Part shown: positions 2,707-24,655 of the stretch, in pieces
Layout of the letters: each line of letters opens with the position of its first letter
Position numbering within the stretch: the stretch's first letter is position 1
Assembly: GCA_016839605.1 (NCBI GenBank)
Contig: JAEOTX010000043.1
Span: forward strand, 1 to 34,472
Reading direction: 5' to 3'
Length of the DNA stretch: 34,472 nt
From: Candidatus Thorarchaeota archaeon
GTDB taxonomy: Archaea; Asgardarchaeota; Thorarchaeia; Thorarchaeales; Thorarchaeaceae
Position numbers and translations under genes: made by a program
The notes under the pieces: generated by a model
The model's database searches: none
What the model saw: the letters and a program-made list of their open reading frames with translations, nothing else
What the model was told of the DNA's origin: nothing

Positions 2707-3906
2707 TCATTCCATGTAGCTTAGCACTTTGACCAGAGTCTTTGATGCGAAATCTACAGGAACTGGCAGTCTACATCTAATCAAATGCTTCAGATATCTG
2801 GGTCCAGCTAAGCGCATACACTGGTCGGTTATTATGTCGGAGGGCATAACCTGGTCGGCAATCCTAAGAATTCTGAGGGCAGCATACAGCTCCTTCCCTA
2901 TCTCCTCCCTCCATGTTTCCTCATAGACTGCAAGCGAAACCCCATCTTTCAAATGACTGACGACGGCTTCTCCAGCTATTTCACCCCCAACTAATGCTGT
3001 GGGAATGCCTCCACCATTGGAGGCCATGACATGACCTGCCGCATCCCCGACAAGAACAGCATTTTCTGAAAACGTTCTATCCACAGGCCCGCCAACAGGA
3101 ATGATGGCTCCAACTCGAGAAACGATGTTTGATTTCTTGGTGCGTGGGGATACAAGTGGATGAAACTGAATGAATCTTCGAAGATACTCCTTCAGCGGCA
3201 CATCCGGGACTCCGAAAAGTCGTCGCATGCCAAAGCCAATGTTGGCTGTGTCATCACCCTTGGGAATAATCCATGCATACCCACCTGGAGCAACTTGTTT
3301 CCCAAAGTACATCTCTGTGGTCTTCGAGTCGCATTCTATCTCAGTGACGACATAGTTTAGAGAAGGACAGAGGTCTCTTCCAGGGTTGTGATAGTGATTG
3401 CCCATTGACTTGGATATGAGAGAGCTTGGTCCATCAGCACCTATCACTACACGGGCATTCATCTCTGCCTTTTTACCCGCTTGCCTCACAATGAGCCTGT
3501 TCGATTTTGATCTCTCAATCACTGTCGAATCCAGCATTATCTTAGCGCCTGCATCCTCAGCTTGATTTGCAATACGCTGGTCAAAATTCGTTCTGTCAAT
3601 AACATGAGCATCAAGTTTGAAATAGAACTCGTTATTCAAAGGAGAAGCGAGCATGAGTCTGCTGGTCCGATTAGTGATGAGCCTATTCGGGATTCTGACA
3701 AGACGTGATGCTCTTGAGGAGTCACGCAAAAGGTCCTGCATCTCTCTGGAAGTAGGCAAGAACTCACCACAATGGATTGGAACTCCTATCTCTCTCCTTC
3801 TGTCAACTACCAGTGTCTTAAAGCCTGCAGCTGCAACCACTCTAGCTGCTGTGCAACCTGCAGGACCTGCACCTACGACAATGACATCATAGGAGTTCTC
3901 AGCCAT
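2707..3906 (-). CDS. geranylgeranyl reductase family FAD-dependent oxidoreductase
   Basis: N-terminal YDVIVVGAGPAGCTAARVVAAAGFKTLVVDRR Rossmann motif; VLVGDAAGHVMASNGGGIPTALVGG FAD motif; start MAENSYD at 3906. Confidence 0.88.
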   Translation of the reverse strand: MAENSYDVIVVGAGPAGCTAARVVAAAGFKTLVVDRRREIGVPIHCGEFLPTSREMQDLLRDSSRASRLVRIPNRLITNRTSRLMLASPLNNEFYFKLDAHVIDRTNFDQRIANQAEDAGAKIMLDSTVIERSKSNRLIVRQAGKKAEMNARVVIGADGPSSLISKSMGNHYHNPGRDLCPSLNYVVTEIECDSKTTEMYFGKQVAPGGYAWIIPKGDDTANIGFGMRRLFGVPDVPLKEYLRRFIQFHPLVSPRTKKSNIVSRVGAIIPVGGPVDRTFSENAVLVGDAAGHVMASNGGGIPTALVGGEIAGEAVVSHLKDGVSLAVYEETWREEIGKELYAALRILRIADQVMPSDIITDQCMRLAGPRYLKHLIRCRLPVPVDFASKTLVKVLSYME

Positions 3907-3978: not shown

Positions 3979-4653
3979 ATGATATCGATACAAGTTGAAG
4001 GACTTACCAGACGCTACGGATACAGAGTCGCTCTAAATGACATATCGTTCGATGTCCCAGTCGGTGGTGTTCATGCCCTATTCGGGAACAACGGTGCAGG
4101 GAAGACAACGCTCATGCGTATCATATCAACACTCCTGCAGCCCCACGCTGGAAAGGTGGCAGTCCTTGGATTTGATACGAAAGAAGACCCCATAGAAGTC
4201 AGAAAGAGGATTGGTGTTGTCGGAGATAAGCCGCTCCTGTATGGCGAGTTGACTGGTAGGGAGAATCTGAATTTCTATTCAGACCTTTACGATCTAGAGA
4301 GTTATACAGCTAGTGCCAGCATAGAAGACCTAGCTGAACAATTCGACGTCAAACGTTGGTTAGATGAACCAACAAAGATACTCTCCACGGGACTGAGGAA
4401 GAGATTCGATATAATCAGAAGCTTGCTACATAGTCCTGACTTGTTCTTACTCGACGAACCATTCTCAGGGCTCGACAAAGACTCCACTCAGGTGTTCAGA
4501 GACTACATTGAAGAAAAACGACAAGACAGAACCGCCATTGTAACTACACACAACTTGTCATTGGGATCGGAGATATGTGATGATTTCATCACGCTGAGAA
4601 AAGGTGAGATTGTAGGCCAAGGGCCAATTTCAGAGTTTGATGGAAACATTTGA
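3979..4653 (+). CDS. ccmA: ABC transporter ATP-binding protein, CcmA-like (heme exporter)
   Basis: Walker A GNNGAGKTT, LSTGLRKRFDI signature, LFLLDEPFSGLD Walker B; directly upstream of ccmB/ccmC. ATG at 3979. Confidence 0.85.
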   Translation: MISIQVEGLTRRYGYRVALNDISFDVPVGGVHALFGNNGAGKTTLMRIISTLLQPHAGKVAVLGFDTKEDPIEVRKRIGVVGDKPLLYGELTGRENLNFYSDLYDLESYTASASIEDLAEQFDVKRWLDEPTKILSTGLRKRFDIIRSLLHSPDLFLLDEPFSGLDKDSTQVFRDYIEEKRQDRTAIVTTHNLSLGSEICDDFITLRKGEIVGQGPISEFDGNI

Positions 4654-4663
4654 GGTGAATGAA

Positions 4664-5386
4664 ATGGGTTCTGGTCTATCATATGCACTTGCAATTGCCA
4701 AGAAAGATCTAGTCACTCAGATGAGGAAGCGATTCGAAGCATTCTCTATGTTCCTGTTCGCGATTATTGCAGTCTTTGTATTGGGTCTTGTTCTGAGTTC
4801 TGCCACCTTTATTGTGCCAGATCCAGAGACAAGACTAATTGTCATGACCGAGATTGGGGCTGGAATGCTGTGGGTAGTAGTGTTTTTCACAGGCATGTTC
4901 GGATTCTCCCCGGTCTTCATCTCAGAGTCTGAAACTGGCACATTGAAGGGATTATCTCTCGCACCCATACCAGCTTGGTCAGTATACCTTGGAAAGGTGA
5001 TCTACGGGTTCATTCTCATGGGTCTGGTCGAGCTGTTCCTGGTACCAATCTCCATGGGACTTCTGGGCTTCACTTTTGCAGCTGACGTGTCACCCATTTT
5101 CATACTTGCAACGTTCTGCCTGGGGACATTAGACTTAGCAGCTGTTGGGGCGATGGCATCAGCTCTGACAATGCCAGCTGAGTCCAAAGCCACGGTCTAT
5201 CCTATAGTGTATTTCCCAACTGCTACTACTGCGCTCATCCTTTTAGTTGAAATCACGAGAATGTTGGCTATCGGAATTCCTTTAGTTGGACCAGGAATCG
5301 TTGATCTATTGATTATCCTTTCAGGACATGTGTTTGCAATGGTAACACTCTCAGCCACAGTGTTCCATTTCACACTTACATCTTGA
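4664..5386 (+). CDS. ccmB: heme exporter membrane protein CcmB
   Basis: Six-TM-like hydrophobic protein (KKDLVTQMRKRFEAFSMFLFAIIAVFVL...) between CcmA and CcmC; ATG at 4664 with GAGGTG RBS. Confidence 0.8.
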   Translation: MGSGLSYALAIAKKDLVTQMRKRFEAFSMFLFAIIAVFVLGLVLSSATFIVPDPETRLIVMTEIGAGMLWVVVFFTGMFGFSPVFISESETGTLKGLSLAPIPAWSVYLGKVIYGFILMGLVELFLVPISMGLLGFTFAADVSPIFILATFCLGTLDLAAVGAMASALTMPAESKATVYPIVYFPTATTALILLVEITRMLAIGIPLVGPGIVDLLIILSGHVFAMVTLSATVFHFTLTS

Positions 5387-5457: not shown

Positions 5458-6129
5458 GTGAACACAAAACGGATGGTTCTCTATATCCTCTCACTGATAG
5501 TATCTTTCGTCTATCTCTATATGGTATGGATTTTCGCACCGCCGGAGTTGAACCTTGGGGAAAGGATTAGGATCTTTTTCCAGCACGTGGCTCCAGCCTT
5601 GATAGGCTATCTGGCATTTGGAGTCACTCTGGTTGCGGGAGTAATGTATCTCTGGAAGCAAGACCTAAGATACGATTTGATTGGAGCAGCATCCATCAAG
5701 ATCGGACTGGTCTTCACAACAATTACCTTGTTAAGTGGAATGATCTGGGCTAACGCCAGCTGGGGTGTATACTGGAATTGGGACCCCAGAGAAACGACTA
5801 CACTCATCTTGTGGATCGCATACGCATGTCTAATTGCCTATCGTGCGTCAGTAAATGACAGAGATGTCAGAGCGCAATATGGATCCGTCTTTGGAATCAT
5901 TGCGTTTCCTGCAGTCATTCTTAGTTATATTTCAATCCGCATTTGGGAAACCCTACATCCCATCGTAATTACTGGCGAGGGTCTTCAGATGGGCCCAGAG
6001 CACGGCATGACGCTAATGGTCAGCCTAATTGCTGTCGGTCTTGTCTATCTGCTGATACTTGATCTCACATATCGAATCGATTCGGTTGCTGAAAGACTGA
6101 TGGAGCTTAGAATGCAGAGGAGTGGATAG
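5458..6129 (+). CDS. ccmC: cytochrome c biogenesis protein CcmC
   Basis: WWD-type signature WGVYWNWDPRETTTLILW; flanking histidines in FFQHVAPALIGY and WETLHPIV. GTG start. Confidence 0.93.
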   Translation: MNTKRMVLYILSLIVSFVYLYMVWIFAPPELNLGERIRIFFQHVAPALIGYLAFGVTLVAGVMYLWKQDLRYDLIGAASIKIGLVFTTITLLSGMIWANASWGVYWNWDPRETTTLILWIAYACLIAYRASVNDRDVRAQYGSVFGIIAFPAVILSYISIRIWETLHPIVITGEGLQMGPEHGMTLMVSLIAVGLVYLLILDLTYRIDSVAERLMELRMQRSG

Positions 6130-6130
6130 T

Positions 6131-6517
6131 ATGCAGTCACCGGACATAATTCTCTCAAATGAACTCTTCACAGTTTCAGTAATACTTTGGGTAGGTACCT
6201 TCACACTACTGTTCTGGCTCTTCATTCGGATGCATAGTCTTGACAAGGCAATTAAAACACTAGCACTGGCAGAGAATCAGGAGTTGAACTCTCAGTCAAT
6301 GTCTAACAAGATTGTTGCTTATGTCGCATTAATCTTGGAACTGATCGGTGCTGCTATCCTCTTGTTAGGGCTTATCGCATGGGTTCCAATCCCGCTTTTC
6401 CCTATGTCAATTGTTATTTGGGTCGGGGTCTTCATTATGCTGCTGTGGCAAATGCTAGGCGTATCTTCTCTTGAAGACTCTCTGGCTACGCTGTCCTTGG
6501 AATCATTTCAGGAGTGA
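6131..6517 (+). CDS. small membrane protein in CcmD position with two related TM modules (CcmD-like duplication)
   Basis: Located between ccmC and ccmE; SVILWVGTFTLLFWLFIRMHSLDKAIKTLAL and SIVIWVGVFIMLLWQMLGVSSLEDSLATLSL align as an internal repeat. Confidence 0.6.
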   Translation: MQSPDIILSNELFTVSVILWVGTFTLLFWLFIRMHSLDKAIKTLALAENQELNSQSMSNKIVAYVALILELIGAAILLLGLIAWVPIPLFPMSIVIWVGVFIMLLWQMLGVSSLEDSLATLSLESFQE

Positions 6518-6523
6518 GCATTG

Positions 6524-6919
6524 ATGAAGAAGAAGACAAGAATGATGTTAATTGCTGGTGTCTTAGTAGTGGTCGTAGGGCTGGTCTCATATGCAATGCT
6601 CAATCTATTTGTTGATCCATACATCAGCGTTGACGCGGTGGTGGACAATCCTGATGCGTACAGAGGTAGAGTCATTCAGGTTAAAGGCACACTCCAACCA
6701 GGATCGATCTCTATCAATCCTGGAAACGTGACACTAGTGTTGGAGGGTAACAACTCAACTATCCTTGTAATAGTAGACACCGACCTTCCTTCGTTGACAG
6801 ACGGCCAAGAGATGGCAGCCATAGGTGTACTTGAAGATGGGGAGAATTTAGCCATCCGAGCCTCACAGATACTCACTCAGTGTTCAAGTAAATATACAGC
6901 TGTGACAACAACAGACTAA
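6524..6919 (+). CDS. ccmE: heme chaperone CcmE, CXXXY variant
   Basis: N-terminal TM anchor followed by an OB-fold-like domain (YRGRVIQVKGTL...VLVIVDTDLPSLTDGQEMAAIGVLEDGENLAIRASQILTQCSSKY); CSSKY takes the place of HXXXY. Confidence 0.85.
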   Translation: MKKKTRMMLIAGVLVVVVGLVSYAMLNLFVDPYISVDAVVDNPDAYRGRVIQVKGTLQPGSISINPGNVTLVLEGNNSTILVIVDTDLPSLTDGQEMAAIGVLEDGENLAIRASQILTQCSSKYTAVTTTD

Positions 6920-7548
6920 TCAGATGTGCGCCATTCATCTCCGAATCTTGCCTTCTCATCGGGAGAACGCGGTTCGTAATGCCACGGAACAGGTAGCTTG
7001 GCCACGGTATCCGAAAGAGCAGCAACTCGTTTACCCATCTGCTCCGCCATTCGCATGGCTTCCATGTCACTTCTAATATCGCCGACGTTCATAGCAAATC
7101 CAACTGGCCAAGAAACCCCGCCAGGAACAATCATTTCTTTGACAAGCATGAAGAAAATCAATTGATTAAGAGCAGTATCCGTACCTGATTTCCTTGCTAC
7201 AACGAGCGCAGCTCCAATCTTCCCCTCTAGGTGAGCAAAGCGACCAACTCGGTCCATGAAATTCTTCATCTGAGAGGTGACACTCGCATAATGCACTGGA
7301 CTTCCAAATATGATGCCTTGCGCCTCTGACATCTTCTCAATAATTGGATTTAGACCATCATTCTGAATGCACTTGCCCAGCTCATAGCATTCGAGACCAT
7401 GTTTGCAAGGATTAATCTCTACATCAGCAATCTCAATGAAATCTATGTCGGCACCGAACTCTTCTGCTGCATGAAGAGCTGTTTCAACAAGAATAGAAGT
7501 GTTGCCACCCTGTCTATTGCTTCCGGATATGCCTAGGACTCTTGCCAT
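6916..7548 (-). CDS. NADPH-dependent FMN reductase / iron-sulfur flavoprotein-like
   Basis: VLGISGSNRQGGNTSILVETAL N-terminus, CKHGLECYELGKC cysteine cluster, IIFGSPVHYASVTSQMKNFMDRVGR. Confidence 0.85.
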   Translation of the reverse strand: MARVLGISGSNRQGGNTSILVETALHAAEEFGADIDFIEIADVEINPCKHGLECYELGKCIQNDGLNPIIEKMSEAQGIIFGSPVHYASVTSQMKNFMDRVGRFAHLEGKIGAALVVARKSGTDTALNQLIFFMLVKEMIVPGGVSWPVGFAMNVGDIRSDMEAMRMAEQMGKRVAALSDTVAKLPVPWHYEPRSPDEKARFGDEWRTSD

Positions 7549-22843: not shown

Positions 22844-24655
22844 GTGGGCAACATTCGTGTTCTTAGCGATGAATTGGTCTCTCTTATTTCAGCTGGAGAA
22901 GTAATCGAAAATCCCTCGTCGATAGTCAAGGAATTGATTGAGAACTCATTGGATGCGGGCGCTACTAATATTGAGACATCAATTACGGAAGGCGGAATTG
23001 GGTCAATAACTGTTTCAGATAATGGTAGTGGGATAATGAAAGAAGACTGCCCAGTATGCACCTTACGCTACTCAACGAGCAAGATTAGCACAAAAGAAGA
23101 CATCGATTCAATTCTAACGTATGGATTCCGAGGGGAGGCTCTTGCAAGTGTTGCTGCAGTTGCAGATTTAGTTATAGTGACAAAGCACCAAGATGAAGAG
23201 CTTGCGACAAGGCTTGTTTCACGAGCAGGTGAAATTCCGGGGATTGAGGATGCCTCACGACCTACAGGAACTACGGTCGAGATTACAAACCTCTTCAAAC
23301 ATGTACCTGCTAGAAGAAAGCACCTGTCATATCCGAGGGTGGAAAGCCAGAGGGTTCTGGACGTCACGATGCGGCATGCAATTGTCAGAAACGATGTAGG
23401 ATTCAGACTTGTCAGAGATGAACGAGTTGTTCTGGATTGTCCTCCGGGACAAACCGAAAGAGAAAGAGTGCTCCACTTGTGGGGTCCTGATGTTGCAGCA
23501 AGCCTAGTCAAATTTCAACATAAGTCTGGCGAAATCTTGGTGTCTGGATTTGTAGCTCTTCCTCCTGTGTCGAGAGGAAACAGGGGAAGGCAATACTTCT
23601 CAGTTCGAAATCGTCCAATCCACGATGACAAGTTGAATCAAGCTGTTGAGTCAGCTTACTCCTCACTCCTGATGAAAGGGAGATATCCTATCTGCTCAAT
23701 CAGGATTGATGTTGACGTGGAAAAAGTCGATGCCAATGTCCACCCAACAAAGAGAGAAGTAAGAATTCAAGACTTCGATTCGCTTATTGAAATCGTAAGG
23801 ACTGCGGTTCGAGAAGCATTGGATGCAGATAGGCTAGAGGAGGCGCCTCTACCATTGCAGGACTTTGTTGATATGCCGTTGTCGGAGAGACTTATTTCTG
23901 CAGGCGAGTCAGAAGAAGATACAACATTCTCGGCACGAACCTTGGCTGAGGAACCTCTCCTTTTTGAGAGAGTCACCCTTGAAGAACTTGTCACAGATGG
24001 GGTGGAAGGACCTGAACAAATCACCCTTGGTGGAGCTTTCAAAATTGTTGGCCAAATACAGGACCTATATATCCTACTCGAATTCGACGATGGACTAGTA
24101 ATCGTTGATCAACATGCAGCACACGAGAGAATCATCTACGAGAGACTAAAAGCAGAGATGAAAAGCAAGAGCATTGTAACACAGGAGCTTCTGGAACCCA
24201 TTGTTCTGCGACTGAATGCAGCTGATAAAGATGCAATCCTTAGTGCTGAAGAGGTTCTAAATGCGATTGGATATTCAATCGAATCATTTGGTGGAAATGA
24301 AGTTCTAGTCTCGACTCTTCCTGAGGTGTTTGGTCATCGAGCAAACGAAGAGGAACTGATTTCATTGGTCGACAGAATCGTAGAGCTCGGCGTTCGAGCT
24401 GCCGCTGAGGAATTCATGGACAATGTCCTCAAGGTCATTGCATGCCATTCAGCCATCAGAGCTGGAGAAACCCTCAGTCACAAAGAAATCGCTTCACTCT
24501 TAGTAGACCTTGTCAAAGCACCAAACAGATACAATTGTGCTCATGGGAGACCTGCAATGATTAAGTTCACAAGGAAGGAGCTCGACAAGCGATTCGGACG
24601 AGATGGTCCTCAAGCTTTATCTCGCTTCAGGGCACGACACCGATTAAGGCGCTAG
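22844..24655 (+). CDS. mutL: DNA mismatch repair protein MutL with endonuclease motif
   Basis: GHKL ATPase motifs IVKELIENSLDAGA, VSDNGSGI, TYGFRGEALASV; VDQHAAHERIIYE endonuclease motif; ACHSAIRAGE; CAHGRPAMIKF. GTG start. Confidence 0.97.
   Translation: MGNIRVLSDELVSLISAGEVIENPSSIVKELIENSLDAGATNIETSITEGGIGSITVSDNGSGIMKEDCPVCTLRYSTSKISTKEDIDSILTYGFRGEALASVAAVADLVIVTKHQDEELATRLVSRAGEIPGIEDASRPTGTTVEITNLFKHVPARRKHLSYPRVESQRVLDVTMRHAIVRNDVGFRLVRDERVVLDCPPGQTERERVLHLWGPDVAASLVKFQHKSGEILVSGFVALPPVSRGNRGRQYFSVRNRPIHDDKLNQAVESAYSSLLMKGRYPICSIRIDVDVEKVDANVHPTKREVRIQDFDSLIEIVRTAVREALDADRLEEAPLPLQDFVDMPLSERLISAGESEEDTTFSARTLAEEPLLFERVTLEELVTDGVEGPEQITLGGAFKIVGQIQDLYILLEFDDGLVIVDQHAAHERIIYERLKAEMKSKSIVTQELLEPIVLRLNAADKDAILSAEEVLNAIGYSIESFGGNEVLVSTLPEVFGHRANEEELISLVDRIVELGVRAAAEEFMDNVLKVIACHSAIRAGETLSHKEIASLLVDLVKAPNRYNCAHGRPAMIKFTRKELDKRFGRDGPQALSRFRARHRLRR

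Follow-up and report, generated by a model that had tools for sequence, protein, structure and literature searches.

A probable tandem CcmD encoded between ccmC and ccmE in a few Thorarchaeota

CcmD is a small membrane protein that assists the attachment of heme to cytochrome c, and in Escherichia coli it is needed for the release of holo-CcmE. This System I protein (PF04995, TIGR03141) is a single module of 69 aa, encoded between ccmC and ccmE (we checked the gene order in E. coli), with one transmembrane (TM) helix whose N-terminus lies outside and whose C-terminus, the cytoplasmic tail, lies inside (PMC10457321). It binds CcmC only (PMC9616876) and contacts heme at both faces of the membrane (PMC12077264), but its role is debated, with release of holo-CcmE, acceptance of heme and stability of the complex all proposed (PMC12077264, PMC11868835). 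The number of CcmD copies per complex, one or two, also differs between two E. coli structures (PMC9616876, PMC10457321). A further family, CcmD_alt (TIGR04391, PF20077), has bacterial forms that are single modules of 36-44 aa in our comparison and shares the core W-x-G-x-F-x-x-L with the archaeal single-module proteins described below, for which it is the best family. Among archaea, the streamlined CcmABCEF system of Methanosarcina acetivorans has CcmABC and a CcmE with a CxxxY motif, while CcmD is reported to be absent and the release of holo-CcmE to be CcmD-independent; the same study describes archaeal genomes as uniformly lacking ccmD (PMC9084895).

The DNA analyzed here, referred to as the window, is a stretch of 34,472 nucleotides from a Candidatus Thorarchaeota genome (assembly GCA_016839605.1, contig JAEOTX010000043.1; G000 in our set), whose nearest named relative is Thorarchaeota MAG WORH6 (ccmC 91% identical). 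Like M. acetivorans, it encodes archaeal CcmABC and a CcmE with the C-x-x-x-Y motif; in contrast to the absence reported for M. acetivorans, it contains what appears to be a CcmD, in doubled form. The genes concerned are:

3979..4653, + strand: ccmA, ATPase subunit (PF00005, 2.5e-27; the listed ORF starts at 3772, the likely start is 3979)
4664..5386, + strand: ccmB (PF03379, CcmB, 3e-17; the listed ORF starts at 4637, the likely start is 4664)
5458..6129, + strand: ccmC, the CcmD partner (PF01578, Cytochrom_C_asm, 2e-31; 91% identical in the congener G003)
6131..6517, + strand: putative tandem ccmD, open frame of 128 aa plus stop between ccmC and ccmE
6521..6919, + strand: ccmE, heme chaperone (PF03100, 1.5e-8; archaeal-type C-x-x-x-Y motif, CSSKY, read from the translation)
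7688..9757, - strand: ccmF (PF01578, 5.8e-28)
12147..13709, - strand: five-CXXCH multiheme protein (five CXXCH motifs in one 520-aa ORF, upstream of ccmF)

The operon order on the + strand is ccmA-ccmB-ccmC-[ccmD]-ccmE, with ccmF on the opposite strand. The 6131-6517 ORF starts 1 nt past the ccmC stop (6129) and ends 3 nt ahead of the ccmE start (6521), directly between the two genes. A sequence-only reading of the window had placed a 129-aa protein at the position expected for ccmD; the Pfam-confirmed neighbors bear out the position, and the length is corrected to 128 aa, as 129 counts the stop codon. The 520-aa five-CXXCH protein is a probable multiheme cytochrome and client of the window's Ccm system. 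Just past ccmE lies an ORF on the - strand (6916-7548) that resembles flavodoxin/NADPH-FMN reductases, judged by sequence only, and its homologues adjoin ccm in G003 (L002) and G007 (L010). MutS-like (14054-16654, + strand) and MutL-like (22844-24655, + strand) ORFs, judged from their translated starts only, are also present in the window, and the start of a MutS-like ORF is found near ccmE in L009 as well.

We surveyed the flanks of ccmC in other archaea, as the sequence-only reading had proposed. Seventy ccmC loci were collected from named genomes of Thorarchaeota, Nitrososphaerota, Bathyarchaeota, Methanophagales, Archaeoglobi and Hydrothermarchaeota, a set biased to ccmC genes close to the Thorarchaeal one and not including M. 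acetivorans. One locus ends at ccmC, leaving 69 that were counted; one false pick (L097) was discarded and the frame was corrected in L116. A CcmD-like ORF lies beside ccmC in 65 of the 69 loci; it is short, has a single TM helix, is mostly 37-58 aa long and is usually followed by ccmE. Four Archaeoglobaceae loci (L093, L095, L097 and L109) have no CcmD-like ORF directly past ccmC. TIGR04391 (CcmD_alt_fam) was the top family for these proteins, with 24 of 53 archaeal singles matching at E<0.1 and only three matching the next family. One single-module protein of another Asgard family scores 30.3 bits with TIGR04391, above its cut-off of 24, another falls one tenth of a bit short of the PF04995 cut-off, and profile-profile comparison of the archaeal singles with bacterial CcmDs gave P 9.5e-10. 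A phmmer search of the PDB with a single archaeal CcmD returned nothing. By genomic place and family, the archaeal single form is CcmD, and the survey indicates that CcmD is widespread in archaea, against the statement of its absence (PMC9084895).

Within the phylum, 232 genomes were searched with ccmC and 29 were found to carry a ccm locus, all of them with a short membrane ORF directly past ccmC. In 25 of these the ORF encodes a single-helix CcmD of 44-56 aa. The remaining four are long (117-143 aa): the window protein (128 aa), its homologue in the congener G003 (128 aa), that of the one-contig genome CP070761 (G022; 117 aa, or 118 aa if read from the printed start one codon upstream) and that of G028 (143 aa). 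The G003 homologue occupies the same place in the operon and is 63% identical to the window protein. Because the long form occurs in two separately assembled genomes, G003 and G022, it is very unlikely to be an assembly artefact. The single CcmDs of other Thorarchaeota (G062, G012 and G009, for example, 44-47 aa) occupy the same operon place as the long forms, but without the middle helix or the second module. The gene is thus kept between ccmC and ccmE in relatives, on which the earlier proposal of a tandem CcmD had depended, as a single module in most and in the long form in four genomes.

A profile built from single CcmDs was run over the 47 genomes of the family and matched exactly the 14 that have ccmC plus one more (G019), whose contig begins at ccmD-ccmE. 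A PF04995 search of the whole family gave background only, with nothing over the cut-off. The single-CcmD profile matched twice within one ORF in G003 (E 1e-10 and 1.1e-5, per genome) and in G022 (E 1.5e-10 and 6.2e-6, per genome), and a search of the whole genome of the window with it found no separate ccmD elsewhere. In G062, a second near-typical single CcmD was observed on another contig (C286:1831-1965, 93.8 bits), which possibly reflects a second ccm locus or contamination.

Three parts are recognized in the window protein, all on the + strand:

6164..6283 (aa 12-51), + strand: module 1, canonical CcmD module by prediction, with an N-out TM helix (core aa 14-32) and a cytoplasmic tail
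6305..6382 (aa ~59-84, core 65-83), + strand: middle TM helix, outside the repeat, hydropathy 2.7
6395..6514 (aa 89-128), + strand: module 2, a duplicate of the CcmD module that aligns with module 1 over 40 aa without gaps

The best local self-alignment pairs aa 12-51 with aa 89-128 over 40 residues without a gap, with a BLOSUM62 score of 94. Shuffles of the whole halves gave a mean of 24.7 (sd 4.7), and none of 5000 reached 94. Block shuffles, which preserve composition locally, were run 5000 times for each of four block sizes, again without reaching 94. Among 898 hydrophobic 128-aa windows of real membrane-protein sequence, drawn from the window and all loci, scores averaged 26 (sd 6.5) and the best unrelated one was 47. 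Split in the same way, G003 scored 77 and G022 56, higher than any decoy, and G028 scored only 26. The self-similarity that the sequence-only reading had named beforehand as its check is therefore significant, and its two related segments (aa 16-46 and 93-123, 12 of 31 residues identical) are part of an alignment longer than it had quoted. Its fused two-module architecture is upheld as to the duplication; the layout is corrected to module, extra helix, module, the third, non-repeated helix having been missed. The amphipathic character that it had ascribed to the tails was not borne out, the hydrophobic moments being no higher than those of shuffles (p 0.41 and 0.51). Both modules keep the W-x-G-x-F membrane core, but the basic residues (RM-type) found in module 1 where the helix meets the cytoplasm are missing from module 2, which has an acidic tail (net -3 in both G003 and the window).

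In the middle helix, Glu70 is common to the window, G003 and G022, and CcmD profiles give no match beyond noise. The middle helices of the window protein and G022 score 41 against each other, compared with a 99th percentile of 37. We considered whether this helix derives from a duplicated N-terminal TM segment of ccmE (ccmD-ccmE'-ccmD-ccmE). Its score with the TM segment of the window's CcmE, 36, is near the decoy 99th percentile of 37, and the other combinations tested gave 19-31, so that this origin is unsupported.

Each half was also compared with CcmD by profile search. With the Thorarchaeal single-CcmD profile, modules 1 of the long forms scored 40-46 bits, the window's module 1 reaching 46 bits (whole-genome E 7e-11), and modules 2 scored 30 bits in G022, 30 bits in G003 and ~17 bits (16.8) in the window; no module 2 was found by this profile in the C-terminal half of G028. 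When whole ORFs were searched (7550 ORFs), modules 2 of G022 (27 bits) and G003 (25 bits) stood above the best unrelated match (12.9 bits), while that of the window, at 12.5 bits, fell below this decoy. A profile of 43 archaeal CcmDs that included no Thorarchaeota gave 29.7 bits for the window's module 1 and, for its module 2, 16.6 bits alone and 11.5 bits in the whole ORF, compared with 10.2 bits for the best true decoy among the 7550 ORFs; all matches above it were CcmDs beside ccmC. A small bacterial CcmD profile gave 16.0 bits for module 2 and 11.7 bits for module 1 of the window. Single-CcmD profiles, including the one without Thorarchaeota, thus find both modules in the comparison of each half to CcmD that the sequence-only reading had proposed. 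Taken together, these converging lines of sequence evidence lead us to conclude that module 2 is homologous to CcmD in the window, G003 and G022, three of the four long forms. The 143-aa ORF after ccmC in G028 (L020) has a two-helix C-terminal extension without a recognizable second module; it may represent either a tandem form that has diverged strongly or an extension acquired independently.

Three hydrophobic helices are present in all four long forms. In each of them the segment ahead of helix 1 and the second loop contain no K/R, and the first loop contains 4-5. From this charge pattern the topology is predicted to be out-in-out-in, with the C-terminal tail on the inner side and both modules N-out/C-in, an orientation compatible with that of CcmD (PMC10457321), as the tandem proposal had supposed. 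Both modules can have the CcmD orientation because the middle helix flips the chain back. A model in which CcmC is read through into CcmD was dropped, as the linker could not cross the membrane. AlphaFold2 models gave helices 4-48, 56-82 and 89-127 for the window protein (pLDDT 65, pTM 0.44) and 2-40, 49-61 and 71-114 for G022 (pLDDT 71, pTM 0.49); at this low confidence the packing cannot be read from the models. A Foldseek search of the PDB with the AlphaFold2 model found nothing below E 3. If CcmD is taken as one N-out/C-in TM helix of ~37-100 aa, each module alone fits this description and the whole protein, with its 128 aa and three predicted helices, does not; we therefore regard it as a CcmD variant and not as a typical member. 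Compared with the single module of E. coli, it has two modules plus an extra helix, and the 128-aa protein as a whole matches no CcmD family in Pfam or NCBIfam at curated cut-offs, CcmD_alt included.

In a tree of CcmB, CcmC and CcmE, the long-form genomes fall into two separate starred pairs, G000/G003 and G022/G028, both outside a clade of single-module Thorarchaeota; a single clade of all four long forms was not rejected (p-AU 0.279). Module-to-module scores do not separate one gain from two origins or from gain and loss. As the other archaea examined are all single, the duplication most simply occurred within Thorarchaeota, once or with later loss. Genus group g10 contains both single (G012, L016/L063) and long CcmDs (G022, L014/L062; G028, L020/L066). 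In the CcmB-C-E tree the ccm operon of G012 falls with a different genus, and together with its single form this placement suggests operon exchange or loss of a module. Between G000 and G003, pN is 0.17 in module 1, 0.33 in the middle part and 0.27 in module 2, and pS is saturated at ~0.8-0.9. Since pN lies far below the saturated pS, all parts are constrained by purifying selection, module 1 most strongly.

The explanation that we consider probable is that the gene is a ccmD orthologue, as its sequence and place document, that was lengthened by a conserved tandem duplication and one extra TM helix, with module 1 as the working CcmD and module 2 as a constrained scaffold. Module 1 would be a canonical CcmD, with its N-terminus outside, one TM helix and a cytoplasmic tail, and we infer that it docks on CcmC, where by homology with the E. 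coli protein it may aid the acceptance of heme and/or the release of holo-CcmE. A CcmD module runs from the outside to the inside, so a second copy fused directly to the first would be inverted. The middle helix would return the chain to the outside; module 2 could then be oriented like module 1, which makes a parallel tandem possible. Module 2 could then lie beside module 1 as an extra scaffold helix on the face of CcmC and the CcmE anchor, stabilizing the complex. The absence of interfacial basic residues from module 2 and its acidic tail point to a scaffold rather than to a second heme-accepting CcmD; taken by itself, this scaffold role is proposed tentatively, at slightly less than even likelihood.

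It is unlikely, in our estimate, that module 2 works as a CcmD alongside module 1. A single polypeptide would then provide two copies, which might serve the pair of CcmC subunits in a Ccm(ABCD)2 complex or share one CcmC. Both modules are constrained, keep the W-x-G-x-F core and have the same predicted orientation, and one E. coli structure holds two CcmD per complex (PMC10457321), another only one (PMC9616876). However, module 2 evolves faster than module 1, has no interfacial basic residues and, in both G003 and the window, ends in an acidic tail. In addition, the symmetric E. coli complex places its two CcmD across the core from each other, and with TM2 and TM3 joined by only a few residues such a reach is doubtful. 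We give the same low likelihood to a natural, tethered dimer of CcmD whose modules each dock on CcmC and either fix two CcmD per complex or bridge two CcmC; if it were true, these archaea would have built one of the two disputed stoichiometries of CcmD in CcmABCD into a single protein.

Somewhat less likely still, module 2 could be a fading duplicate that was kept by chance and has no function of its own. This would agree with its faster evolution relative to module 1, its unrecognizable state in G028 and its absence from the clade that holds most of the Thorarchaeota ccm operons. A fading copy is difficult to reconcile, however, with a pN of 0.27 far below the saturated pS of 0.81 (G000 versus G003), with the frame and length kept in three independent genomes, and with the 25-30 bits at which modules 2 of G003 and G022 match single CcmDs. 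We consider it very improbable that CcmD was extended at its C-terminus by an unrelated TM hairpin that resembles module 1 through convergence of membrane helices: G028 would fit and TM segments share their composition, but the self-alignment scores (94, 77 and 56, with no decoy above 47) largely refute it, and whole-genome profile matches to module 2 in G003 and G022 stand against it as well. Least probable of all is that another small membrane protein came to lie in the operon by chance, for although the 128-aa protein passes no CcmD family cut-off, the gene is present exactly with ccmC and has a fixed place after it across archaea, TIGR04391 is the dominant family of the singles, and their profile matches that of bacterial CcmDs.

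CcmD, which was reported missing from archaea, thus occurs in a few Thorarchaeota with a second copy joined to it through an extra helix; in the reading that we favor, module 1 would be the working CcmD and module 2 its scaffold. A natural two-module CcmD of this kind would be a ready tool for the question of the role and stoichiometry of CcmD.
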